Positions 2,463 to 18,293 of a DNA stretch of 25,269 bases are shown here, piece by piece. The DNA comes from a virus. The translations under genes were made by a program, and so were the position numbers. The notes beneath the pieces are model-generated. The model was not told the origin of the DNA. It made no database searches and saw only the letters and a program-made list of their open reading frames with translations. How positions within the stretch are numbered: the stretch's first letter is position 1; every line of letters begins with the position of its first letter. The stretch spans positions 1 through 25,269 of IMG/VR virus record IMGVR_UViG_3300042456_000176; one strand, written 5' to 3'.

Positions 2463-2922
2463 AGAAGTAGAAACCTACGTGTGGGGCTTTGTGGTCGTCA
2501 TGGTCACATTGATTCTTTGCTTTATTGTTATTGCTTTGCTGTACTCAGTTACCTTTGTGACGCAGCCAATCAAGACCATGGCCCCGATTGATATGGCATA
2601 TACCAAGATGCTGAACGACATTGTTCTGTTGATTGTTGGTGGCATCGGTGGAGTTATCGGTAAGAAGGGTGTAGGAACAGCTTTAAACGCCATCCAAGGA
2701 ACTCCTAGCCCTAGCCCTACCCCTCCCCCAGTAGTTCAAGCGTCTGTAACGCCTACTTCTACATGGACTTCAACAGGGTCAGCACCTAACTGGTTGAACT
2801 TTAAGAATCCTGATCTAGATGAATCATGGACTCCACCGCCTCCTCCAACAACACCGCCTGATTTGTTAGAAGCTGATCACGAGCGTCAACAGTTGGCCAT
2901 GGCCCGAAAAGAGGTGAGCTAA
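2431..2922 (+). CDS. Membrane protein with proline-rich tail (unknown function)
   Basis: A 163-aa protein. The start is set at ATG 2431, with a good SD (AAGAAGG, 2417-2424), rather than the in-frame TTG at 2413. It has a short cytosolic N-terminus, a first long hydrophobic helix (about residues 18-45), a second Gly-rich hydrophobic segment (about 66-83, IVLLIVGGIGGVIGKKGV), then a low-complexity Pro/Ser/Thr tail (GTPSPSPTPPP and WTPPPPPTTPPDLL) and a charged C-terminus. Two membrane segments plus a disordered tail in a lysis cassette could be an accessory holin or a membrane adaptor, but no family is recognised. Its stop overlaps the ATG of the Rz-like gene by 1 nt (TAATG). Confidence 0.78.
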   Translation: MSRQKQRPTIEEVETYVWGFVVVMVTLILCFIVIALLYSVTFVTQPIKTMAPIDMAYTKMLNDIVLLIVGGIGGVIGKKGVGTALNAIQGTPSPSPTPPPVVQASVTPTSTWTSTGSAPNWLNFKNPDLDESWTPPPPPTTPPDLLEADHERQQLAMARKEVS

Positions 2923-3419
2923 TGTTTGGCATACCACTCCCTTGGGTTCTGGTGGTTCTTTGTATAACCTTATTTGGAACTTACAGAGGTGGCTACCATT
3001 TTGGCTGGAGTGATCGTGACAAAGAAATGCAGATTGAAATTGCCAGGAAGAATGAGGAATCTCGTCAGACTGAACAGAAACTTAACGAACAATTAAACGC
3101 TACTGCTGGTAAACTTTTGGAGGTTAACGATGTTGTCAACAAAAAACAAAGTGCTTTGGATGCTGCCATTCGTGCTGGTAGGGTGCGCCTCCCCGCCGCC
3201 AGTTGTGTACAAGCCCCCGCAAGTGCCGCCCCTGCCCCCGCAGATACAAAAGCAACCAGTGAACCTGACAGACCGACTGACACAGCTTCTGATGCCGAGC
3301 AAGCAACCCTCCAAGCCATCGCAGAAATAGTTGCCCAAGGGGATAGGAATACTGCTGCGCTCAATGCGTGCGTGGACTCGTACAACCAGATGAGAGACTT
3401 GCTAAATGGTAACAAGTGA
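2922..3419 (+). CDS. Rz-like inner-membrane spanin (DUF2514-type)
   Basis: A 165-aa type II membrane protein. An N-terminal transmembrane helix (about residues 5-20, PLPWVLVVLCITLFGTYRGG) is followed by a long periplasmic coiled coil (about 30-85, DKEMQIEIARKNEESRQTEQ onward), a disordered Ala/Pro/Thr linker (about 95-130) and a final helix (AALNACVDSYNQMRDLLNG). That is the architecture of Rz-type i-spanins; the ending with C and Y...MRD is typical of DUF2514 phage proteins. Together with an outer-membrane o-spanin it would fuse inner and outer membranes in the last step of lysis. The partner gene is nested in the +1 frame at 3130-3330. The 3' end overlaps the endolysin by 14 nt. Confidence 0.85.
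   Translation: MFGIPLPWVLVVLCITLFGTYRGGYHFGWSDRDKEMQIEIARKNEESRQTEQKLNEQLNATAGKLLEVNDVVNKKQSALDAAIRAGRVRLPAASCVQAPASAAPAPADTKATSEPDRPTDTASDAEQATLQAIAEIVAQGDRNTAALNACVDSYNQMRDLLNGNK
3130..3330 (+). CDS. Rz1-like outer-membrane lipoprotein spanin, nested in Rz
   Basis: A 66-aa ORF wholly inside the Rz-like gene in the +1 frame, with a strong SD (GGAGG, 3119-3123) 6 nt before its ATG. The N-terminus is a lipoprotein signal (WMLPFVLVGCAS, lipobox LVGC, Cys19). The mature peptide is short and extremely Pro-rich (PPPVVYKPPQVPPLPPQIQK), the hallmark of Rz1 o-spanins, and ends in a small helix (LTDRLTQLLM). Lambda Rz1 is likewise nested within Rz. The product would sit on the inner face of the outer membrane and bind the periplasmic end of Rz. 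Lipobox, proline content, SD and context all agree. Confidence 0.88.
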   Translation: MLSTKNKVLWMLPFVLVGCASPPPVVYKPPQVPPLPPQIQKQPVNLTDRLTQLLMPSKQPSKPSQK

Positions 3420-8011: not shown

Positions 8012-8464
8012 ATGAGTAACCATACACTTCAGCCGTTAGCCGCATGGATAACTGAGTCGGTAAAAGACCCAGAAGTATTGGAGTTTCTGACGCTGGTTTA
8101 CAACGCTATTGAGACTTGGGATGACATTGTTGACAAAGACAACCGCATCTCTGTGGATGATATCCACAATGTATTTGCTCAGTTATTGATTAAGCTGCCT
8201 GCAAATAGGTTTTATCAGCATAACTACGCAGCTTTAGCTGGCATGTTGGTTGTTATTATTACTTCATGGCATACGTCGAATGCAATTGATGAGACACCTG
8301 AAAGCAAAGCGCACGGCTATACGTTGCGCAAAGAGTTTATTAACTTGGTCGTGCTGTGTGTTGCCATGACAGGCAGTATTGCTGATGCACGCAAAGCGTC
8401 GTTGTTGGGGTGGACATGCTCTGCTGCCAACGATTCTTTTGATGAATTTATAAGGGGCGAATAA
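8012..8464 (+). CDS. Conserved helical phage protein between fibre and ejection genes (unknown function)
   Basis: A 150-aa protein. The frame stays open upstream to 7796, but I choose ATG 8012 because earlier starts lie inside the fibre gene and give an atypical Arg/Tyr/Trp-rich extension; from 8012 the sequence reads as a normal folded protein (MSNHTLQPLAAWITESVKDP). It is all-helical, with acidic patches (YNAIETWDDIVDKDNRISVD) and a hydrophobic helix (YAALAGMLVVIITSWHTSN). I recall unannotated phage proteins of this size at the same place before gp14-like genes; a role in tail or ejection-protein assembly is possible from context only. TAATG overlap with the next gene. Confidence 0.75.
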   Translation: MSNHTLQPLAAWITESVKDPEVLEFLTLVYNAIETWDDIVDKDNRISVDDIHNVFAQLLIKLPANRFYQHNYAALAGMLVVIITSWHTSNAIDETPESKAHGYTLRKEFINLVVLCVAMTGSIADARKASLLGWTCSAANDSFDEFIRGE

Positions 8465-9489
8465 TGGGATGGACCGGAGGTGGCGCTAAGCCGGTGGCTG
8501 ACCCCAATATTGGGATCGCACAAAAACAATTGGCGGACTTGTCTACTGAACAGTGGAACACGTTTAAGAACGACATTTATCCAACCCTGCTTGCACAAAC
8601 TAAAAAAGCAGAGTCACGCGCCGATGAAATATGGGCTAAAGATAGAGAAATTGCTGACTTCAATCTTGAGCAAGCGAAGAAGTCAACCAAGCGTTATGAA
8701 GAAACAGCTATTCCTGCGATGGACAAACTCAAAGCAGATGCTGATCTATACAACACCGCAGGCTACCAAGAACAGATGGCTGGTCAAGCTATTGGCGATA
8801 TTGCCTCTGCACAAGAAGTTGCTCGCCAAGATCAAGCTATGCGAGATCGTGCTTATGGTATTGACCCAACGTCTGGTCGCTCTGCCGGTGCTGCTAACGC
8901 AAACAACGTACAAGCTGCTTTGGCCAAAGCCAGTGCTGCAACTCAAACACGCGAAGCTGCTAAGCAACTTGGTTTACAGAAACAAGCTAACGTATACAAT
9001 ATGGCTGCAGGCCTTCCAATGCAATCGTTACAACAATCTGGCGCTGCAGTAAACGCAGGTGCTGCAGGTCTTGCCGCAGGTCAAACAGCTCAAAATGCTA
9101 CTATGGGAGCAAGCGGCGCAACTAATGCTGCTGCTGGATCGGCTATGCAAGGCTGGAGTCAAGTGGGCAACATTGGTGTTGGTAAATATAGAGCTGACAT
9201 TGACGCGTACACTGCACGCTCTAATGCAAACCCATGGAACACAATCATTGGCGCTGCTACTGGTGTTGCAACTGCAAAAGCTATGGGCTCTGATCGTCGC
9301 CTTAAGACAGACATTAAACAAGTTGGTACTTTAGACAACGGGCTACCTGTGTACAGCTACCGCTATAAAGCTGGCGGTCCTACAATGCTTGGTGTTATGG
9401 CCGACGAAGTGCAAGTGGTTCGCCCTGAAGCGTATATCCAAAACGGCATTGACGGTCATTATGATGCTGTTGACTACGCAAAACTGTAA
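8464..9489 (+). CDS. Internal virion/ejection-type protein with C-terminal S74-like autoprotease domain
   Basis: A 341-aa protein. Residues 1-150 form long charged helices (EIWAKDREIADFNLEQAKKS). Residues 150-250 are Ala/Gly/Asn/Gln-rich with GAAGLAAGQ-type stretches that could insert in membranes, as in T7 gp14-like ejection proteins. The last 66 residues begin SDRRLKTDIKQVGTLDNGLP and end GHYDAVDYAKL, matching the peptidase S74 / intramolecular chaperone domain, including GVMADEVQVVRPEA. The Ser276/Lys281 pair has the +5 spacing of the S74 catalytic dyad, so self-cleavage before Ser276 is predicted. It follows the fibre with a TAATG overlap and precedes two larger ejection-type genes. Confidence 0.8.
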   Translation: MGWTGGGAKPVADPNIGIAQKQLADLSTEQWNTFKNDIYPTLLAQTKKAESRADEIWAKDREIADFNLEQAKKSTKRYEETAIPAMDKLKADADLYNTAGYQEQMAGQAIGDIASAQEVARQDQAMRDRAYGIDPTSGRSAGAANANNVQAALAKASAATQTREAAKQLGLQKQANVYNMAAGLPMQSLQQSGAAVNAGAAGLAAGQTAQNATMGASGATNAAAGSAMQGWSQVGNIGVGKYRADIDAYTARSNANPWNTIIGAATGVATAKAMGSDRRLKTDIKQVGTLDNGLPVYSYRYKAGGPTMLGVMADEVQVVRPEAYIQNGIDGHYDAVDYAKL

Positions 9490-9501: not shown

Positions 9502-10947
9502 ATGGCAGGCGCATTTTCCGCAGGCTTCCGCATGGGAGCAGACATATACGACTCTTCGCAGCGTATGAAAATTGCAAAAGAACAGCAAGAGTTTGCACGA
9601 GAAGAAGCTGAAGCTAGACGTGCGGAACGCCAACTTGCAAACGATATACGTACTGCTGGGGCTGAAACTCTTGGCATGGAAGGCAAGCCCGTAGAATATT
9701 TAGGTGGGGAAATGGGCCCTCAACCTGAAGCCGCACAGACTGCCTTACGTTCCGACATTGCTACTGCGCCTGCCAAAATGTACACAGCGGAGCAGGCACA
9801 GCAAGATTATTTAAGACGCTTGCGTGGTCTTGATGTTGGCAAAGCCCAACAGTATGAAAAAGGTGCTTTGGAACTTGGTGAATTACAACGCAACGCGCGC
9901 TACGCAAAAAACCAAGAACTTGCGCTTGGATTTAACGACTCAATTATCAAAGATCTAACTGCGGCTAATGGTGATGCTGCAACGGTCATCGAAAATCGTT
10001 TTATTCCACTGTACAACGACGATAAGCTTGACGGGTTTAAAGACGGCGGTAGAGCAAAGCTTGTCCCCAGCGCTATGGGTGATGGCAAAAGCATTTTGAT
10101 TACGTACAAAGATGGCAAGCAAGAAACATTGCCTGCTGACTTGAAAACTTTGCAGCAGTTGACCACGTATACGCAAGACAAGATGATGCGCTCGTCGACC
10201 CCAGAGAACTTCTGGAAATCAAAGACATACGAGTTGGACGAACGCAAAACAGCTGCTGCAGAGACGTCTGCTAAAGCTGCTGCTACAAATGCTGAGACTA
10301 GTGCATCTGAACTAAAACAAAAAATTACAGCAGGTTTGTTTGGGGCGGAAGTTGCGCTCAAAGGTGCTCAGACTAAGAGTGCTCTTGCAAGTGCTAACCA
10401 AGCCAATGCCCACGCTGGCGTGTATAAAAACATGATTAAGTTGGCCAACGAAAACAGAGAAGCTGGTGTTGCAGTTAAAGATGCCTTGGCTAAATACGAA
10501 GCCTTATCTGATGATGAGAAAGCCACAAAGGGCCCACAAATCCTGATTGACGGTGCGGTAGCTGCGGCTAAGAAAACAGGCGACATCACTGGCATCCTAA
10601 ATGTCTTGAAGAAACCTGATAAGTCACAAGCGCCTGAGATCGATCCAAAACTCAAGGAAGCTGCGTATAAAGAGTACTCAGAAGCTGGAACTGATCCTAA
10701 CGCGTTGGCGGCTATTAAAGCTAAGTACCCTGGCGTGTTTGGACAATCTGCTTTGGATAAAGCTTTGGCGGGCGCTCCAGCTAAACCTACCGAACCAGCT
10801 GTAGAGGGTCGTCCTTTCTATAATAAAACCAATGCGGAACTTCTTCGCATGACTAAACGGGCTATCGGTACAAGTACTGCAGAAGCACGAGAAGCCCAAG
10901 CTGAGCTAGACGCTCGCAAAGGTGAGTCTCGTATGAAAGCCAATTAA
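9502..10947 (+). CDS. Putative internal virion/ejection protein, coiled-coil (gp15-like position)
   Basis: A 481-aa protein starting at ATG 9502 after the SD GGAG. The N-terminus (MAGAFSAGFRMGADIYDSSQ) leads into long Ala/Lys/Glu/Gln-rich helices with heptad character over about residues 20-150 and 240-370 (AAATNAETSASELKQKITAG). A compact middle part (NRFIPLYNDDKLDGFKDGG, ILITYKDGKQETLPADLKTL) looks folded. The C-terminal third has a helical repeat and a disordered APAKPTEPAVEGRP linker. Length, composition and position between the gp14-like gene and the giant fit a podoviral ejection protein that enters the host with DNA. No enzymatic motif is visible. Two internal antisense frames are shadows. 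Confidence 0.7.
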   Translation: MAGAFSAGFRMGADIYDSSQRMKIAKEQQEFAREEAEARRAERQLANDIRTAGAETLGMEGKPVEYLGGEMGPQPEAAQTALRSDIATAPAKMYTAEQAQQDYLRRLRGLDVGKAQQYEKGALELGELQRNARYAKNQELALGFNDSIIKDLTAANGDAATVIENRFIPLYNDDKLDGFKDGGRAKLVPSAMGDGKSILITYKDGKQETLPADLKTLQQLTTYTQDKMMRSSTPENFWKSKTYELDERKTAAAETSAKAAATNAETSASELKQKITAGLFGAEVALKGAQTKSALASANQANAHAGVYKNMIKLANENREAGVAVKDALAKYEALSDDEKATKGPQILIDGAVAAAKKTGDITGILNVLKKPDKSQAPEIDPKLKEAAYKEYSEAGTDPNALAAIKAKYPGVFGQSALDKALAGAPAKPTEPAVEGRPFYNKTNAELLRMTKRAIGTSTAEAREAQAELDARKGESRMKAN

Positions 10948-10958
10948 GGTAGTACAAC

Positions 10959-13900
10959 ATGGCAACACTTGCACAGCTTCGGGCATATTTTCCCACTGCT
11001 GAGTCTGACTCAGACGCTATCAAAATGGCGTCTAAGCAGTTTGGTATTGACCCAGCTGAAATTGCTAACGAAGTTGGGTTTAAGTTTAATAAGCCCGGGT
11101 TCATGTCGGACATTAAACGTGGAACTGGCCAAGCGATTGGTGCGATTGGTTCAACTGCGCGTGATCTTGGTTTGCCTACTATTGGTAAAGCCGTTGAAGG
11201 TTATGGGGAAGATGTTGCATACCGCAACCCCTCGCAGATCAATACTGTTGGTGAAGCTGTTCGTAGTCCACTGACTACCATTCGTGAATCTGTCGGCGAA
11301 ATTATTCCACAGATTGGAACGTCTCTTGGTGCCGGTATGGCAGGTCGCTTTGTCGGTGGCGCTATTGGTTCTCTTGCAGGCCCTGGCGGTACTGTTGCAG
11401 GTCAAGCCATCGGTGGTGCTGCGGGCACATACCTTGGTAACTTAGCCCAGTCATATGGTGGTATCCGCGCTGAACAACGCGAACAAGGTATTGAGGACAA
11501 AGGCCGTGCAGCTGCTGCTGGTGCAGGTTCTGCTGTATTGGATACAGCGTTTGGTGCTGAGCGTGTTGTAAATAAGTTTCTTACCAAGGGCTCTGACATT
11601 CTTGCTCGTGAAGCCGGTACAAGTTTACTCAAGAATGTTGGTAAACAAACAGCTATTGGTGTTGGAACTGAATCTCTTACCGAGGGTGTCCAAACTGGAA
11701 TAGAGCGTTATGGTGCCTACAAACCGTTAACCGGTGATGAAGCTCTTAATGAATATGGCTTAGCCATGATCAAAGGCGGTATCGGTGGTGGTGTCGTCCG
11801 TGGTGGTTTGGCTTCTATTTCTGGTGAGCGTCCAGTTGAAGGTGGCAACGATATCCAACAAGCCTTTAGCCAACCAAACGTCAGTGGTACACCTACTACA
11901 AATGTAGTTCCGCCTGTAACACCGCCTCCCACACCTCCAGCCGCTACTCTTTCGCCTCCTGCTGTAACAGGTGGGACGACAGACATTGCTCAACAAACAC
12001 AAGCAGCTGCAGCAGAAAACCAACAAGTACAAGAAGCACAACAAAACTTAGTCAAGCGTGAAGACGTCTTTGGTAAAGTTGCCACACAGTACGACCCTGC
12101 CAATCCAACGTCGTTAAACATCTTTGGTCAGAACATTGAAGGCCCACGTGTTGCACCGTTTGGTGATCGATTCGCTGCAGTATTTAATACACTGCCCCCG
12201 CACGTTCAGGAAATTGCCCAAGCAATTACACAAGCAAACAACGCGTTTGCTACACCTGAGAAGCCAAGTCCCTTGGTTAGTTTTAGCTTCAATGCTAACA
12301 ACCCTGTGCCTTCAGCAGATAAAGCTGTTGCAGCCCTTGGTAAAGTGATGACCAAGTTTCAGATTGACCACGTGCAATCAAAAGATGAGGCCGTACAGAT
12401 TCTCAACAAACTCTCGACGACTACCAAAGGTAATCAACTGGAGCAACTCAACGCCATCTACGAAGCTTTGACCGGCCAAGACACAGATGGTTTTACAGCA
12501 GCACAAGCCACTAAGGCAGAAAAAGGAGCTAAAGATGGAAAATTGCAAACAACTACCGGGATGGGAACAGTTCCAATCCAAGGCGGAACAGAGCAAGCAA
12601 ATGCAGGAAATGATGGGAATGTACAACCCAGCGGAGTTCAATCCCTCGGGACAGGAGGTCTCCCTGAAGGATCGCTTGGCCTCCAAGTTGGACAGCAGAC
12701 AGCAGAAGGAATACGGACTGGCACCAGTGGAGTATCCGATGTTGTCGGTGGTAACGCGCCGTCGCAAGTAATTGGAGCACCCAATGAACAAGCCGTCCAA
12801 GCAACAGTTGGTGAGTCCGGACAGCCCAGCGTTCCAGCCATGGTTGAGCCAACTGTGGCAGAAGGCGCAGGCCCGCGAGTCTACAACCCCCAAATCCCTT
12901 ACTACGCCACAGACCTCAGCCACATCAGCTCGACCCGTCGAGTCGAAATCCGAAACAACTTAATTCGCGCAATCCTTGCTCCCAAGCAAGAACGCAAAGG
13001 GGCAATGACCCTTGAGCAACGAATTGAGATGGTGATGATGGCGCTTAGCGCCGGAGATTCCCATGCGGATATTGCCGATCGTTTGAAAGTTCCTGAGTCC
13101 ACAATTCAGAAACAGCTTGAGCGGTTGGGGATTGTCATTAAGCCTCGTCTTACCGAAGCACAACAAGGTGAAGTTTCTTCTATTGAAGAGCGCCTAGGCA
13201 TCCCTGCTGGTACTCGTAATACTACGGCAGATAAGTTTGCTGTATCTAAAGCAATTACTGCAGAGCTTCCTGTTGAGGAAACTGCCAACTTGGTTAGTCG
13301 CCTTAACGAGCTGTATAAATCCGCTGGTAGAGCTTATGGTATGGACCCAGTTGAAGGTGGTAAAGCCTTTGACGACTTGTTACTTGACGCTGGTGAAGCT
13401 TACCGTTCACCCGAGTTTCCCGATGGTATTGGCGCAGGCGAAATTATTTACTTGTATAGCCATGACCGAAATGTTTCTACCAAAGAAACTGCAGCAGACC
13501 AGCAAGCCAAGGAAATGGGTGCAGCTACTGCTGAACAGTTGGAAGAAGCTGGCTTTGGAACTGTCGCTACTGGTGGCGGAAGCCAAGGTGCTGTGGGTAC
13601 ACAGGCAACGTCTCTGTTTAACCAAGCCGAAAAACTGCAGAACGACTTAGCCAAACTAGAAGTTGGTACGCCAGAGTACACAGCTAAAGCAGAGCAGCTT
13701 GCTGCTTTGTGGAATAAGTACGCTAAGAAACAAGCCAGCCTAGAGAAGGCTGAGTCCACTACCGTTGAAGAAGGGGAAGAGAATGCCGTTCAAGAGCCAA
13801 GCGCAGAGGAAGTTCCTGTTCGCGAAGGAGCCGGAGGTGGCAAAAAGGTGGGCAAAGGAAACGCCAAAAGGGGCAAAGCTGCCGGAAAAACTGAAGTCAA

Positions 13901-16900
13901 GCCAGAGCCCAAGCAAGAAGCCAAGTCCGAAGAAATAAAGACACCCGCTGAAGAGTGGGCATACGCAATTCGATTTGCACCGGAGTTACCCCCTTATGAC
14001 GTTCTTAAGAAGGATGAAAAAACTCGCTGGGATGATCTCGTCCGTCGTGGACAAGCTAACCTTGCGGCTGCTGTCAAAATTGTCGGTGAGAAGCCTCAAC
14101 CTGCTGGCGCAACATTGGCCAACGAAAAGCCTGAGACAACGGGCACTGATGGAACTGCTGAAGCGGTAAACAGCAAGAGCGCCAAGTTCATGGAGTTCTC
14201 TGACCTTGAAGATGAAGTCAAAGGTATCAGTGATGTTCGTGAACAGTTTGCGGACATGGATATAGAGAACGCCCTAGACTTTGTGTCTGATTGGCAAGTT
14301 GTTACTGACCGTTCCAAAGACGCATTCCATGGACAACTCAAGACCGAGAATGGCAGGTACATTGGTGTACTGAATCTTGCCAAAATGTCAAACCCTGCAT
14401 ACGCAGCGGAAACAGCTCGCCACGAAATTGCCCACGCAGTTGATATGACCCCACATGGCGGTGTGTATTCACACCAGCTCGAAATGAATGTGGAGATCAA
14501 GAATGGTAAAGTTGTTCCTGTTGGCGAAGTTGCTAAGGAAATGTTTGAGTTGTTCCAGACTAACAAATCATTCACAACCTTCCTTGACTACCCATTCAAC
14601 ATTCAAGTCCACACTGACCTAGACACCAATGGCAAAATTGAGAGCGAACTGTTTGCACAGATTTTCTCTATCTATACAAACCCAAAGTACACAGACTACA
14701 TCGCATCAGTCGCGCCCAAGACTGCTACTTTCTTGGAAGAGGTAATCAATGACATTCGCACAACGACAGCGCTTCAAGTCCAGAAGAGCACAACTGCAGC
14801 AACAAGAGCCATCGACTTCCGTAATCGATATACCGCCCGCCGCAATCAACGGGCGGCTGAAGTTTATGGCGGAAATAGACAAGCAAATGAAGGACCAGTC
14901 AACAGACTCGGCCAAGGCCGAGAGTTCACAGCCGACCAAGTAATTGGCTCACTGCCCAAACCGTTGCAGTCTTCGGCTCGCAGCCAGTGGACTAACATCA
15001 AGACTCTAGCCAAACGTGGCTTGTATGCTTCTGCAATTACAGAAGACGTTATCGGTATGGCTAAGAAGTACATGCCTTCTGCTGCCAAGTACCTGCAAGC
15101 TCAGTATGCCCGTCAAGGCACACGCTTGGAATTTGAAAAGCGTATTGAAGACATTTTGTCCTCGTTCGACAAGTTACCCGCCAACCTCAAAGGTGAAGGT
15201 AAGGGCAGTGTCAACGAATACATCCATGATTCCACTCGCGAGAAGAAGTGGGGCTACTATCCTGGTGAGCAACAAGTAGGCACTAAGTTGTTTGAAGTTG
15301 ACCCAGACTTTAAAGAACGCTTTGATGCATTCCCGCCTGCTGCCCAGCGGTTGATCAAACAAGTATTTCAGCATGGCTACGAAGCCCTGAGACTGAAGCA
15401 GATGGCTGCTGAAAACGCAGTGAACCGCGAGTTTGACTCACGTATTAAAGCTGCTGGTAACGATGCAGACTTACTGCAAAGCTTGAACAAAGAAAAGCGT
15501 CAGATGCTCAAGCGTATTACCAGCTTGCGTAACGTGAATGTGTCTGACCCGTATGCATACCTTGGTCGCTATGGTGACTATGTCGTGGTTGCCAAGTCCA
15601 AAGAGTTCATTGCTTACGAAGAAGCTGCTACAGGCACGCGGTCTAGCACAAGAGGCGACTCTATCGTTGGCGACCCACAGCAAGCCAAGAACTGGTTGCA
15701 AGACAATGTGTCCAATCCGCTCCACTACGTAGTCCAGTTTGCTGAGACACAAGGTGAGGCTGATGACATTGCTGCTGAACTACAAGCCACTGGTCAGTAT
15801 GATGTACAGCCCGAAGACGCTGGTATTAAAGAAGCAAATGCTTCTTACGCCGGTGGTTCAGATGTTCACATGGCTGTGGCCCGCTTGCGTAACTTGGCCC
15901 AACGCCAGACCGAATCCACGGACGGTAAGCTAGAGAAAGCTATTTCTGATCTGTACTTGATGACTGTAGCGGAAGCCAGTGCACGTCGCTCTGAACTTGA
16001 ACGCAAGAATGTCTCTGGTGCAGATAAGAACATGATGCGCAACTTGGCTACCAGTGGTCGTGCCGATGCACACTTCTTGGCTACGATGGAACACAGTGAC
16101 GAACTCAATGATGCACTAGAAGCCATGCGCAACGAGGCGCGGAACAACCGCAAGGACGCGATGCCTCTGTACAACGAACTGTACACTCGTTACGCGGATA
16201 GCATGGAGTACTCCCAGCCAAGCGTGTTGGCGCAGAACCTTTTGCGTATGTCAACACTGTGGAACTTGTCCACTAGCCCTGCGTACTATCTCCAGCAGGT
16301 GCTTCAGACTTCTGTGTTGTCCTTGCCATACATGGCAGGCCGTCTTGGTTACTTCCGTTCAGCTCGTGCAATCAAGCGTGCTTACGGCGACATGTCTTAC
16401 CTCGTAGCGGGTCTGGATATCAACGACCATATTGACTTTGACAAAGCACATCCTGATGTACGCTTCATGCTTAAAGAACTGGTCCGCATGGGCAAGATTG
16501 ATATTGGTATTGACGCTGATGCCAAAGCCCGTACAGACGAGCAAGGTGCGCTTGGCAAAGTGATGTTCAAGCTGCAAGGTATCAATACACGTATTGAATC
16601 AATCAACCGTGCTACAGCTGCCATCGCGGCTTACCGTGGATACCTTGAGCGATACAAAGGTGCTACTGGCGGTGACGCTATCCGCTTTGCTGCCGACGTG
16701 GTATCCAACACGCATGGTAACTACGATGGATTCAACACACCTCGTATCCTCCAGAGCGGTGGTGCTAAGGTCTTGCTGCAATTCAAACGCTTCCAGATCA
16801 TTCAGCTGTCCATGCTTGCCAAGCTGATCCACACTTCGTTTAAAGGCGCTAGTGCAGAAGAAAGAGCTATTGCTCGTGCATCGTTGAAATACATTACTGC

Positions 16901-17744
16901 GCACATGGCTGTGCTTGGTGGTGCTTTGGGTGTACCGTTTGTGTCTCAAGCTGCAAGCATTTTGTCTAGCGTGTTTGGTGACGAGGATGAGCCCGACGAT
17001 TATGAGTACAAGTTACGACGCATGATAGGTAATGATGCTGTAGCTGATTTGGTGCTTCGTGGCGTACCTGCCGCGCTTGGACTCGAATCTATTGGTAAGC
17101 GTCTGTCTATGGAAAACGTTGCGTCGCCATTTGGTCCATTCGTTGACTTCAACTTAACATCTCGTGCAGATGCGGCTCAGATGATTGTGGGGATGATGGG
17201 CCCAGCAGTCGGTTTGGGACTGAAGTTCGTTGACGCGCTTGGCATGATGGCCAAGGGTAACTACTACAAGGGCTTAGAGTTGGCGTTGCCAAATGGTATT
17301 GGCAATGCGATGAAGGCGTACCGCTTCGCCACTGAAGGCATTACGATGCGCAATGGGGACTTGGTGATGAAGCCGGAAGATATCAGCATGATTGATGCTG
17401 CTTTCCAAGCTGTTGGTCTCCCCACTTCGACCATTACTGACAGGCAATACACTCAGAAAGTGGTTGCGGAATTTGACAAGTTCTATGCATCTCGTGCAGG
17501 CGAAATCAAAGCGATGTATGTGGAAGGCTCTCGACAGAGCGATGCAGCAGCGATGGCTGAGGCTCGTGATGACTGGCAGAAATTGCAGGAGTCGAGAGTT
17601 AAGAACGGATACAAGCGTCAGTCAATGTCTGAGTTGTTCCGTGCACCAGCTGAAGCGCGTAAGCGTGAGCAAAGTGTTGTGGGTGGCGTACAAACCACTA
17701 AATCAAATCGTAAGTTAGTCGAGCAAGTAAGCTCAGGTTCTTAA
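10959..17744 (+). CDS. Giant multidomain virion/ejection protein with HTH, HEIAH metallopeptidase motif and LPD38-like C-terminus
   Basis: 2261 aa, the largest gene here. N-terminus: MATLAQLRAYFPTAESDSDA, then a glycine-zipper region (about residues 119-165, GAGMAGRFVGGAIGSLAG) and a second alanine/glycine helix block (about 185-235). A Pro-rich linker lies near 305-350. A helix-turn-helix lies at about 683-728 (SAGDSHADIADRLKVPESTI). Residues 1075-1290 contain a zinc metallopeptidase motif HEIAHAVD (His1155, Glu1156, His1159) with a candidate third ligand in ESELFAQIF (about 1228-1230). The C-terminal about 930 residues are large helical domains (YIHDSTREKKWGYYPG; LLQFKRFQIIQLSMLAKLIH), the latter resembling LPD38-type polyvalent-protein domains, with a hydrophobic segment near 1978-2005. 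Four +1-frame ORFs lie on its linkers. Its order after two ejection-type genes suggests a gp16-like DNA-ejection role. Confidence 0.85.
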   Translation: MATLAQLRAYFPTAESDSDAIKMASKQFGIDPAEIANEVGFKFNKPGFMSDIKRGTGQAIGAIGSTARDLGLPTIGKAVEGYGEDVAYRNPSQINTVGEAVRSPLTTIRESVGEIIPQIGTSLGAGMAGRFVGGAIGSLAGPGGTVAGQAIGGAAGTYLGNLAQSYGGIRAEQREQGIEDKGRAAAAGAGSAVLDTAFGAERVVNKFLTKGSDILAREAGTSLLKNVGKQTAIGVGTESLTEGVQTGIERYGAYKPLTGDEALNEYGLAMIKGGIGGGVVRGGLASISGERPVEGGNDIQQAFSQPNVSGTPTTNVVPPVTPPPTPPAATLSPPAVTGGTTDIAQQTQAAAAENQQVQEAQQNLVKREDVFGKVATQYDPANPTSLNIFGQNIEGPRVAPFGDRFAAVFNTLPPHVQEIAQAITQANNAFATPEKPSPLVSFSFNANNPVPSADKAVAALGKVMTKFQIDHVQSKDEAVQILNKLSTTTKGNQLEQLNAIYEALTGQDTDGFTAAQATKAEKGAKDGKLQTTTGMGTVPIQGGTEQANAGNDGNVQPSGVQSLGTGGLPEGSLGLQVGQQTAEGIRTGTSGVSDVVGGNAPSQVIGAPNEQAVQATVGESGQPSVPAMVEPTVAEGAGPRVYNPQIPYYATDLSHISSTRRVEIRNNLIRAILAPKQERKGAMTLEQRIEMVMMALSAGDSHADIADRLKVPESTIQKQLERLGIVIKPRLTEAQQGEVSSIEERLGIPAGTRNTTADKFAVSKAITAELPVEETANLVSRLNELYKSAGRAYGMDPVEGGKAFDDLLLDAGEAYRSPEFPDGIGAGEIIYLYSHDRNVSTKETAADQQAKEMGAATAEQLEEAGFGTVATGGGSQGAVGTQATSLFNQAEKLQNDLAKLEVGTPEYTAKAEQLAALWNKYAKKQASLEKAESTTVEEGEENAVQEPSAEEVPVREGAGGGKKVGKGNAKRGKAAGKTEVKPEPKQEAKSEEIKTPAEEWAYAIRFAPELPPYDVLKKDEKTRWDDLVRRGQANLAAAVKIVGEKPQPAGATLANEKPETTGTDGTAEAVNSKSAKFMEFSDLEDEVKGISDVREQFADMDIENALDFVSDWQVVTDRSKDAFHGQLKTENGRYIGVLNLAKMSNPAYAAETARHEIAHAVDMTPHGGVYSHQLEMNVEIKNGKVVPVGEVAKEMFELFQTNKSFTTFLDYPFNIQVHTDLDTNGKIESELFAQIFSIYTNPKYTDYIASVAPKTATFLEEVINDIRTTTALQVQKSTTAATRAIDFRNRYTARRNQRAAEVYGGNRQANEGPVNRLGQGREFTADQVIGSLPKPLQSSARSQWTNIKTLAKRGLYASAITEDVIGMAKKYMPSAAKYLQAQYARQGTRLEFEKRIEDILSSFDKLPANLKGEGKGSVNEYIHDSTREKKWGYYPGEQQVGTKLFEVDPDFKERFDAFPPAAQRLIKQVFQHGYEALRLKQMAAENAVNREFDSRIKAAGNDADLLQSLNKEKRQMLKRITSLRNVNVSDPYAYLGRYGDYVVVAKSKEFIAYEEAATGTRSSTRGDSIVGDPQQAKNWLQDNVSNPLHYVVQFAETQGEADDIAAELQATGQYDVQPEDAGIKEANASYAGGSDVHMAVARLRNLAQRQTESTDGKLEKAISDLYLMTVAEASARRSELERKNVSGADKNMMRNLATSGRADAHFLATMEHSDELNDALEAMRNEARNNRKDAMPLYNELYTRYADSMEYSQPSVLAQNLLRMSTLWNLSTSPAYYLQQVLQTSVLSLPYMAGRLGYFRSARAIKRAYGDMSYLVAGLDINDHIDFDKAHPDVRFMLKELVRMGKIDIGIDADAKARTDEQGALGKVMFKLQGINTRIESINRATAAIAAYRGYLERYKGATGGDAIRFAADVVSNTHGNYDGFNTPRILQSGGAKVLLQFKRFQIIQLSMLAKLIHTSFKGASAEERAIARASLKYITAHMAVLGGALGVPFVSQAASILSSVFGDEDEPDDYEYKLRRMIGNDAVADLVLRGVPAALGLESIGKRLSMENVASPFGPFVDFNLTSRADAAQMIVGMMGPAVGLGLKFVDALGMMAKGNYYKGLELALPNGIGNAMKAYRFATEGITMRNGDLVMKPEDISMIDAAFQAVGLPTSTITDRQYTQKVVAEFDKFYASRAGEIKAMYVEGSRQSDAAAMAEARDDWQKLQESRVKNGYKRQSMSELFRAPAEARKREQSVVGGVQTTKSNRKLVEQVSSGS
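12535..12771 (+). CDS. Nested +1-frame ORF 1 within the giant gene (78 aa, unknown)
   Basis: ATG 12535 is preceded by AAAAGGAG (12521-12528) at 6-nt spacing, an SD as good as any stand-alone gene here. The peptide is well balanced and looks foldable: MENCKQLPGWEQFQSKAEQS, a Met-rich helix (MQEMMGMYNPAEF), an amphipathic helix (EVSLKDRLASKLDSRQQKEY) and GLAPVEYPMLSVVTRRRK. The giant's own frame over the same bases is a featureless Gly/Gln/Thr/Val linker (residues 526-604). Of 19 Gly codons in that main-frame stretch, 10 are GGA, against 2 of 27 at 11101-11465 (hand count), as expected if the other frame is constrained. No family recognised. The frame opens further upstream (12487), but only this ATG has an SD. 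Confidence 0.6.
   Translation: MENCKQLPGWEQFQSKAEQSKQMQEMMGMYNPAEFNPSGQEVSLKDRLASKLDSRQQKEYGLAPVEYPMLSVVTRRRK
12784..12963 (+). CDS. Nested +1-frame ORF 2 within the giant gene (59 aa, unknown)
   Basis: Starts 12 nt after the stop of nested ORF 1, in the same frame, with GGAG (12774-12777) 6 nt before ATG 12784. The peptide has a plausible folded start (MNKPSKQQLVSPDSPAFQPW, then LSQLWQKAQARES) and a disordered Ser/Thr/Pro tail. The overlapped main frame (residues 609-668) is again linker-like at its start, but becomes more structured (YNPQIPYYATDLSHISSTRR) towards the end, so the tail may be under weaker selection. The tandem arrangement with its own SD makes ORFs 1 and 2 look like a small operon inside the giant gene. 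No family recognised. Confidence 0.52.
   Translation: MNKPSKQQLVSPDSPAFQPWLSQLWQKAQARESTTPKSLTTPQTSATSARPVESKSETT
13783..13938 (+). CDS. Nested +1-frame ORF 3: MPFKS-type small phage protein
   Basis: A 51-aa ORF inside the giant gene in its +1 frame. The first 35 residues (MPFKSQAQRKFLFAKEPEVA, then KRWAKETPKGAKLPE) closely resemble a family of tiny phage proteins that I recall as separate genes, with consensus MPFKS..Q.R...A..P.iAK.W...T. and a Lys/Pro end. AAGGGGAAGAG (13770-13780) gives an SD just before ATG 13783. The giant's own frame over these bases (residues 942-993) is a low-complexity Glu/Gly/Lys linker using codons uncommon elsewhere in the gene (GGA, AGG). A random frame giving this sequence is very unlikely. 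The family's function is unknown to me; the cationic, Trp-containing helix suggests nucleic-acid or protein binding. Confidence 0.78.
   Translation: MPFKSQAQRKFLFAKEPEVAKRWAKETPKGAKLPEKLKSSQSPSKKPSPKK
14749..14943 (+). CDS. Nested +1-frame ORF 4 within the giant gene (64 aa, unknown)
   Basis: ATG 14749 follows GGAAGAGG (14735-14742) at 6-nt spacing. The peptide has a basic helix (MTFAQRQRFKSRRAQLQQQE), a hydrophobic/proline turn (STSVIDIPPAAINGRLKFM) and a charged helix with a Ser/Lys tail (AEIDKQMKDQSTDSAKAESS). In the giant's frame the same bases encode the linker (about residues 1264-1328) between the HEIAH domain and the large C-terminal domain. It is in the same +1 frame as nested ORFs 1-3. 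No family recognised; coding status is inferred from SD, composition and the shared pattern. Confidence 0.52.
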   Translation: MTFAQRQRFKSRRAQLQQQEPSTSVIDIPPAAINGRLKFMAEIDKQMKDQSTDSAKAESSQPTK

Positions 17745-18038: not shown

Positions 18039-18293
18039 ATGGCAAAGTCACCAGCTTGGCAACGCAAAGAAGGCAAGAACCCTGAAGGCGGATTGAACGC
18101 CAAGGGTCGTGCATCTTACAACAAAGCAAACCCCGGCAAGCCCGGGCTTAAAGCACCACAACCTGAAGGCGGTTCGCGCAAGGATTCTTTTTGCGCACGC
18201 ATGGAAGGTATGAAAAAGAAGTTGACAAGTGAGAAAACGGCTAACGATCCGAACTCACGTATTAACAAATCACTGCGTGCTTGGAAGTGTTAA
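18039..18293 (+). CDS. DUF6321-type small basic phage protein
   Basis: An 84-aa Lys/Gly/Asn-rich protein: MAKSPAWQRKEGKNPEGGLN, AKGRASYNKANPGKPGLKAP, RKDSFCARMEGMKKKLTSEK and NDPNSRINKSLRAWKC. These phrases are diagnostic of a widespread phage family I know as DUF6321 (GGLNAKGR, SFCARM.GMKKKLT, A.DP.SRINKSLR.W.C). It has two conserved Cys near the C-terminal half and no membrane segment. Function is unestablished; the basic composition suggests nucleic-acid contact. It is the last gene of the rightward arm and ends beside the convergent terminator. Confidence 0.88.
   Translation: MAKSPAWQRKEGKNPEGGLNAKGRASYNKANPGKPGLKAPQPEGGSRKDSFCARMEGMKKKLTSEKTANDPNSRINKSLRAWKC

Follow-up and report, generated by a model that had tools for sequence, protein, structure and literature searches.

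Conserved small genes probably nested in the +1 frame of a giant polyvalent-type phage gene

Introduction

The closest precedent for small genes nested in a giant phage gene is the lambda Rz/Rz1 pair, in which the +1 frame of a larger phage gene contains the whole of a small gene with its own start (PMC6139136). A survey of spanins distinguished embedded, overlapped and separated architectures, proposed stop loss and read-through as one pathway, and found no family that mixes the embedded architecture with the other two (PMC6139136). The best-known case of de novo origin is that of the embedded +1 sgl lysis genes of single-stranded RNA (ssRNA) phages (PMC7693330). Here, a stretch of viral DNA of 25,269 nucleotides (IMG/VR record IMGVR_UViG_3300042456_000176, positions 1 to 25,269; hereafter the window) was analysed, in which one giant gene holds four small open reading frames (ORFs), n1 to n4, in its +1 frame. 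Sequence comparison indicates that these are very probably real small late genes, each initiated independently from its own Shine-Dalgarno (SD) motif and ATG within the giant mRNA, and that n3 was probably absorbed into the giant by read-through.

This locus differs from lambda Rz/Rz1 in that at least four genes lie in one giant, two of them as a mini-operon, and in that the host gene encodes a probable injected polyvalent protein with linkers, whereas Rz and Rz1 form a functional partner pair. Unlike the spanins, the n3 family has separate, overlapped and embedded members. As with the ssRNA-phage sgl genes, short +1 genes lie within variable parts of the largest gene (PMC7693330), but sgl genes are rapidly arising, non-homologous lysis genes, whereas n1 and n3 are conserved homologous families. 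The giant shares with polyvalent DarB-like/PLxRFG proteins its C-terminal similarity, modular domain shuffling and late structural context (PMC5512222). A term search of the latter paper turned up nothing on overlapping or nested genes, and searches of the open-access literature yielded no description of a phage giant with several nested genes.

Results

Anatomy of the nested reading frames

Four ORFs inside the giant gene, pointed out in an earlier note on this DNA, were located at the positions given below. All begin with ATG, all lie in frame +1 of the giant ORF, and each is preceded by an SD-like motif, at a measured distance of 6 nt for n1, n2 and n3 and 5 nt for n4. They fall, as the earlier note had described, on low-complexity linkers, where the main frame is rich in Gly, Ser, Thr, Gln and Lys.

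10959..17744, + strand: giant host gene, an ORF of 2261 aa
12523..12528, + strand: SD of n1, AAGGAG, 6 nt before the ATG
12535..12771, + strand: putative nested gene n1, +1 frame, 78 aa, pI 8.8
12774..12777, + strand: SD of n2, GGAG, 6 nt before the ATG and directly 3' of the n1 stop
12784..12963, + strand: putative nested gene n2, +1 frame, 59 aa, pI 9.8
13771..13776, + strand: SD-like motif of n3, AAGGGG (AAGGAG in several relatives), 6 nt before the ATG
13783..13938, + strand: putative nested gene n3, +1 frame, 51 aa, pI 10.5, MPFKSQAQRK... family (phrog_1375)
14739..14743, + strand: SD-like motif of n4, GAGGT, 5 nt before the ATG
14749..14943, + strand: putative nested gene n4, +1 frame, 64 aa, pI 10.0

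The predicted products are small, basic, late-region proteins, and that of n1 begins with MENCKQLPGWEQ... An AGGA(G)-type motif lies about 6 nt before the n1 ATG in nearly all n1 homologues listed, and locus L164 has TGGAGA. In about ten relatives, the n1 stop and the n2 ATG are directly adjacent (TAAATG), and in others the ATG lies 12 nt further on, with its own GGAG; judged by this layout, n1 and n2 are a two-gene mini-operon written inside another gene. The n2 proteins form a variable family with the pattern MNKPxK...P.W...L...A, and the n2 slot of other phages holds divergent or different small proteins. In two loci (L031, from 1080, and L143, from 7001), a different conserved nested +1 gene follows n1 in this slot, with the SD TTGGAGAC and the protein pattern MP..K...SLVKL.KF.YNQ.KPENP.FL.QFQQAW.

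The number of such ORFs was compared with chance by shuffling the synonymous codons of the giant 1000 times and counting +1 ATG-ORFs of at least 50 aa, with and without an SD. Shuffled giants average 6.4 of these ORFs and the real giant has 10; for ORFs with an SD, the shuffles average 2.06 and the giant has 6, and the probability of at least four with an SD is 0.12. ORF-count significance was therefore rejected as evidence for nested genes, and the case for them must rest on comparison. The +2 frame is almost closed in the shuffled giants, and the +1 bias of the nested ORFs is thus explained by the composition of the giant.

Selection on the nested frame

For 22 giants aligned by codon, main-frame synonymous changes between minimum-spanning-tree pairs were compared with expectation. 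Suppressed synonymous variation, which the earlier note had predicted for all four intervals, is strong in n1 (41 changes against 267 expected, a ratio of 0.15, z -17.8) and n3 (39 against 177, 0.22, z -13.2) and weaker in n2 (111 against 166, 0.67, z -5.3) and n4 (87 against 110, z -2.8), these z values being approximate because the spread of window z across the giant is 3.5. Within the window's clade, synonymous changes in n4 number 4 over 122 codons, compared with 524 over 1565 elsewhere (p=1.5e-15). Substitutions at main codon positions one, two and three number 151/86/54 in n1, 77/29/41 in n3 and 2185/1458/5548 in the rest of the giant. The main-frame third position, which is the nested second position, is frozen in n1 and n3, and nested third positions are free; this is the substitution pattern of a +1 coding frame. 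Where the two frames share DNA, divergence is lower in the nested protein than in the main one, at 12% against 22% in n1 and 9% against 17% in n3. Control +1 open stretches of the giant carry no signal of constraint, with synonymous change of 0.18-0.42 compared with 0.03-0.05 in n1 and n3.

The limits of the constraint coincide with those of the nested ORFs. At 8-codon resolution, the borders of n3 are sharp, with a rate of 0.99 before the ATG, 0.09 after it and 0.87 past the stop. Constraint on n1 begins at the SD, where the rate is down to 0.49 in codons 518-525, and ends at the nested stop, and n2 is constrained over its first ~20 codons and then relaxes. Suppression over n3 recurs in four other, unrelated giant groups (0.07, 0.14, 0.26 and 0.07). 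The main frame itself stays free of stops across n1, where a random choice of synonymous codons for n1 would introduce a stop into each sequence. Judged by conservation, the case against chance is overwhelming for n1 and n3 as putative functional overlapping genes, clear for n4 in its own clade and weaker for n2.

The third low-synonymous stretch of the giant (14025-14174, 0.42 of expectation) coincides with a fifth ORF, which lacks a good SD, has a weak start context and is treated as a candidate only.

13996..14169, + strand: candidate fifth nested ORF, +1 frame, 57 aa, Leu/Lys/Arg-rich, pI ~12, conserved stop

Directly behind the stop of this ORF, relatives carry variable main-frame domain insertions, which by eye resemble YkuD-like L,D-transpeptidase and ParB-like domains.

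Retention of the nested ORFs

Searches of IMG/VR returned 15 loci for the giant (59-100% identity), 20 and then 50 for n1, 3 for n2 and 5 for n4, and more than 400 matching stretches for n3, of which 80 were kept. Every n1, n2 and n4 relative found sits in frame +1 of an open giant ORF, and n1 lies inside a giant in all ~45 contigs in which it was found. A sample independent of the nested genes was drawn through the virion gene at 8464-9489, two genes upstream of the giant, which gave 37 loci. All 23 contigs that reach both sites have n1 and n3 nested in +1, and two further contigs end just past n1 and carry it; the remaining 12 gave no match, and any of them that include the beginning of a giant break off short of the site. 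From giant to giant, the main-frame sequence on either side of n1 and n3 is very different or unrelated, and the nested genes thus vary less than the intervening domains. Sequence n4 is kept at 91-92% in the window's clade and at 43% in the divergent L041.

The nested frame is thus under purifying selection that begins and ends with the nested ORF, the starts and SDs of n1 are conserved, and n1 and n3 are universally retained in this phage family. Broken frames or missing SDs in homologous giants, which the earlier note had named as the observation that would count against it, were not found for n1 and n3 in the window's family. Its proposal that the nested ORFs are working genes is borne out as far as selection can indicate, since they behave as independently started genes under purifying selection.

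The n3 family and its states

The earlier note had matched one of the ORFs to a known type of small phage protein, and this ORF is n3, which matches phrog_1375, a family of MPFKSxAQ small basic proteins (profile E=6.7e-4; 3.4e-7 for the best n3 relative); 29 of the 46 n3 relatives match the same family. Many of these relatives are free genes, whereas the window copy is nested. The family core is MPFKS.AQ...P..A...L-P, with M1, P2, F3, K4, Q8, P17, A20 and L33 invariant. For n1, n2 and n4, Pfam and PHROGs gave nothing significant, phrog_1375 being the only such match for n3, and profiles of n1 and n3 found no match among PDB sequences. On reading the sequences, no lipobox of the kind expected in an Rz1-type lipoprotein was seen in n1 to n4, and no lysis signature in n1 or n3. 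AlphaFold models n3 as two predicted helices and a basic tail (pLDDT 74) and n1 with pLDDT 69, both too weak for a fold search.

Across viral and metagenome-assembled genome (MAG) contigs, n3 is nested in +1 in 43 cases, nested in +2 in none and standalone in 36; in four (L056, L091, L104 and L105) it is partly overlapped in +1 by the upstream gene, and in 15 it forms the N-terminal part of another protein by in-frame fusion. All of these counts are biased, since the query favours relatives of the n3 in the window. In L048, L053, L058, L060, L067, L089, L097, L099, L109 and L112, MPFKSQAQ... forms an N-terminal tag on different phage proteins of 192-1517 aa. Standalone n3 occurs in phages and in MAG contigs of many phyla, so that the family is far more widespread than any one giant. 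In L100, n3 lies directly 3' of the giant and abuts its end, whereas the L082 giant, 40% identical in its C-terminal half, holds n3 inside. Between window-type and marine-type giants, alignment is confined to the n3 overlap itself or to a weak match at the C-terminus.

These separate, partly overlapped and fully nested states, the second of which would be intermediates, support absorption of n3 by read-through. A tree of the family requires 10 changes of nesting state, at least three of them on firm branches; it is poorly resolved, and the direction, absorbed or escaped, is therefore judged from distribution and intermediates. One nesting event in an ancestor was also considered for n3; the tree, which forces at least three state changes, is too poorly resolved to settle this, and window-type and marine giants align only as described above. 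The earlier note had proposed that the giant was assembled by reading through formerly separate genes and had called for standalone copies in other phages. Both expectations are supported for n3, and neither extends to n1, n2 or n4, for which no standalone relative was found among IMG/VR contigs.

The giant host gene and its setting

The C-terminus of the giant (residues 1511-2255) matches phrog_10089, which comprises DarB-like antirestriction and PLxRFG polyvalent proteins (E=8e-54), and by this profile similarity over hundreds of residues the giant resembles the DarB-like/PLxRFG polyvalent proteins. A tblastn search with the giant returned 32 phage records, each below 60% identity. An HTH-like segment lies at ~685-722 and a metalloprotease-like ARHEIAHAVD motif, read by eye, at ~1150-1190. 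A Pfam scan gave neither a methylase nor a helicase match, and an antirestriction role is therefore not claimed. Virion genes precede the giant in the window, and this position, together with the DarB-like/PLxRFG resemblance, suggests by analogy with the polyvalent family (PMC5512222) that the protein is probably packaged and injected. A gene of ~480-630 aa lies directly 5' of the giants in L061, L050, L052, L178 and L183, which are unrelated-looking phages, and the window copy is at 9502-10947; this shared neighbour suggests an equivalent virion position for all these giants.

Two other features of the window were recorded.

2922..3419, + strand: Rz-like spanin (phrog_1327) with an embedded +1 Rz1 at 3130-3330, a 66-aa Pro-rich lipoprotein with a lipobox-like VGCASPPP and the SD TTTTGGAGG
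18039..18293, + strand: small basic DUF6321 protein downstream of the giant

Elsewhere, the DUF6321 domain forms the C-terminus of larger phage proteins (phrog_3477, phrog_727).

Discussion

In the proposed mechanism, ribosomes would start at the SD and ATG of each of n1 to n4 within the giant mRNA, and translation of n1 and n2 may be coupled. With ribosome sites of their own, the small basic nested proteins would be made in excess over the giant, with which they may act, unless they act in the virion or the ejection pathway. Most likely, they would be accessory proteins expressed late, together with the giant but at a higher copy number, and the unstructured linkers of the giant presumably tolerate a compromise sequence. 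The n3 gene would have begun as an ordinary small gene whose upstream neighbour lost its stop and read through n3 in +1, the only frame that would stay open, and in the final step the extended upstream gene would have joined the downstream gene. The same route may apply to n1, n2 and n4, or these may have arisen by overprinting inside the linkers; they have no free relative, and absorption and de novo overprinting are therefore inseparable and equally possible there.

The alternative that survives best is that all the nested genes arose de novo by overprinting in a pre-existing giant and that standalone n3 genes are later escapes or convergent, which we consider a serious possibility, though a less probable one. 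The +1 frames of the giant are naturally stop-poor, and leviviruses provide documented cases of embedded +1 genes that arose de novo where conservation is lower (PMC7693330). Restricted distribution, as expected of de novo sgl-type genes, is true of n1, n2 and n4 as far as searched, with n1 having no standalone relative in phage isolates and being absent from 84,980 genomes. It is false for n3, which is widespread, stands alone in phages and in MAG contigs of many phyla and is nested in giants with unrelated flanks.

Programmed frameshifting of giant ribosomes into +1, which would yield truncated giants with alternative tails, is suggested by the shared +1 frame of all nested ORFs and by +1 being open for a few to ~20 codons 5' of the n1, n2 and n3 ATGs. 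It is nevertheless very improbable, as constraint begins at the ATG of n3 and at the SD of n1 and not further 5', the ATG and SD of n1 are conserved in almost all relatives, the n2 ATG can touch the n1 stop, and the free n3 gene starts at the same Met. Slightly less probable still is that the scarcity of synonymous variation is due to RNA structure, packaging or a regulatory sequence and not to coding: the stretch at 14025-14174 is constrained without a good start, indicating that not all constrained stretches are proven coding, but the n1 and n3 signal is frame-specific, starts and stops with an ORF whose ATG and stop are preserved, and in n3 belongs to a family with standalone protein homologues. 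Chance open frames of a biased composition, which shuffling does produce at this length and for which the unconstrained +1 stretches of the giant also speak, are hardly credible, given the presence of n1 and n3 in every relative that reaches them and their far lower synonymous change; this reading is refuted for n1, n3 and n4 in its clade and is partly possible for the n2 tail and the fifth ORF.

Several observations weigh against independently started nested genes with an absorbed n3. Constraint on n2 is weak and all but vanishes in its C-terminal half, and n4 was not found in IMG/VR beyond the window's clade and L041. The n3 copies of marine giants have no recognisable SD yet are intact and conserved. 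Codon usage is atypical in both frames of the overlaps and does not tell which frame is older, the n3 tree rests on 46 columns with few firm branches, and sampling through the neighbouring virion gene found no phage in which a standalone n1 separates the two halves of a giant. Independent initiation of n1 to n4, with absorption of n3, remains the account that we favour.

A broader idea, which we hold tentatively and at somewhat under even confidence, is that giant polyvalent genes expand by engulfing entire small neighbours: once a stop has gone, the giant reads through the small gene in +1, and the small gene stays alive within a new linker. The nested genes would then be fixed points around which main-frame domains are swapped, and the linker would be largely a by-product of nested codons.

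Gene callers usually disallow same-strand nested genes, and a conserved set of phage proteins would therefore be missing from annotations. With its separate, partly overlapped and nested states, the n3 family makes the route from free gene to nested gene testable. The odd low-complexity linkers of giant phage proteins may be explained, in places, by DNA that codes for another protein, and within the linkers of this giant one stretch of DNA appears to serve two proteins repeatedly.

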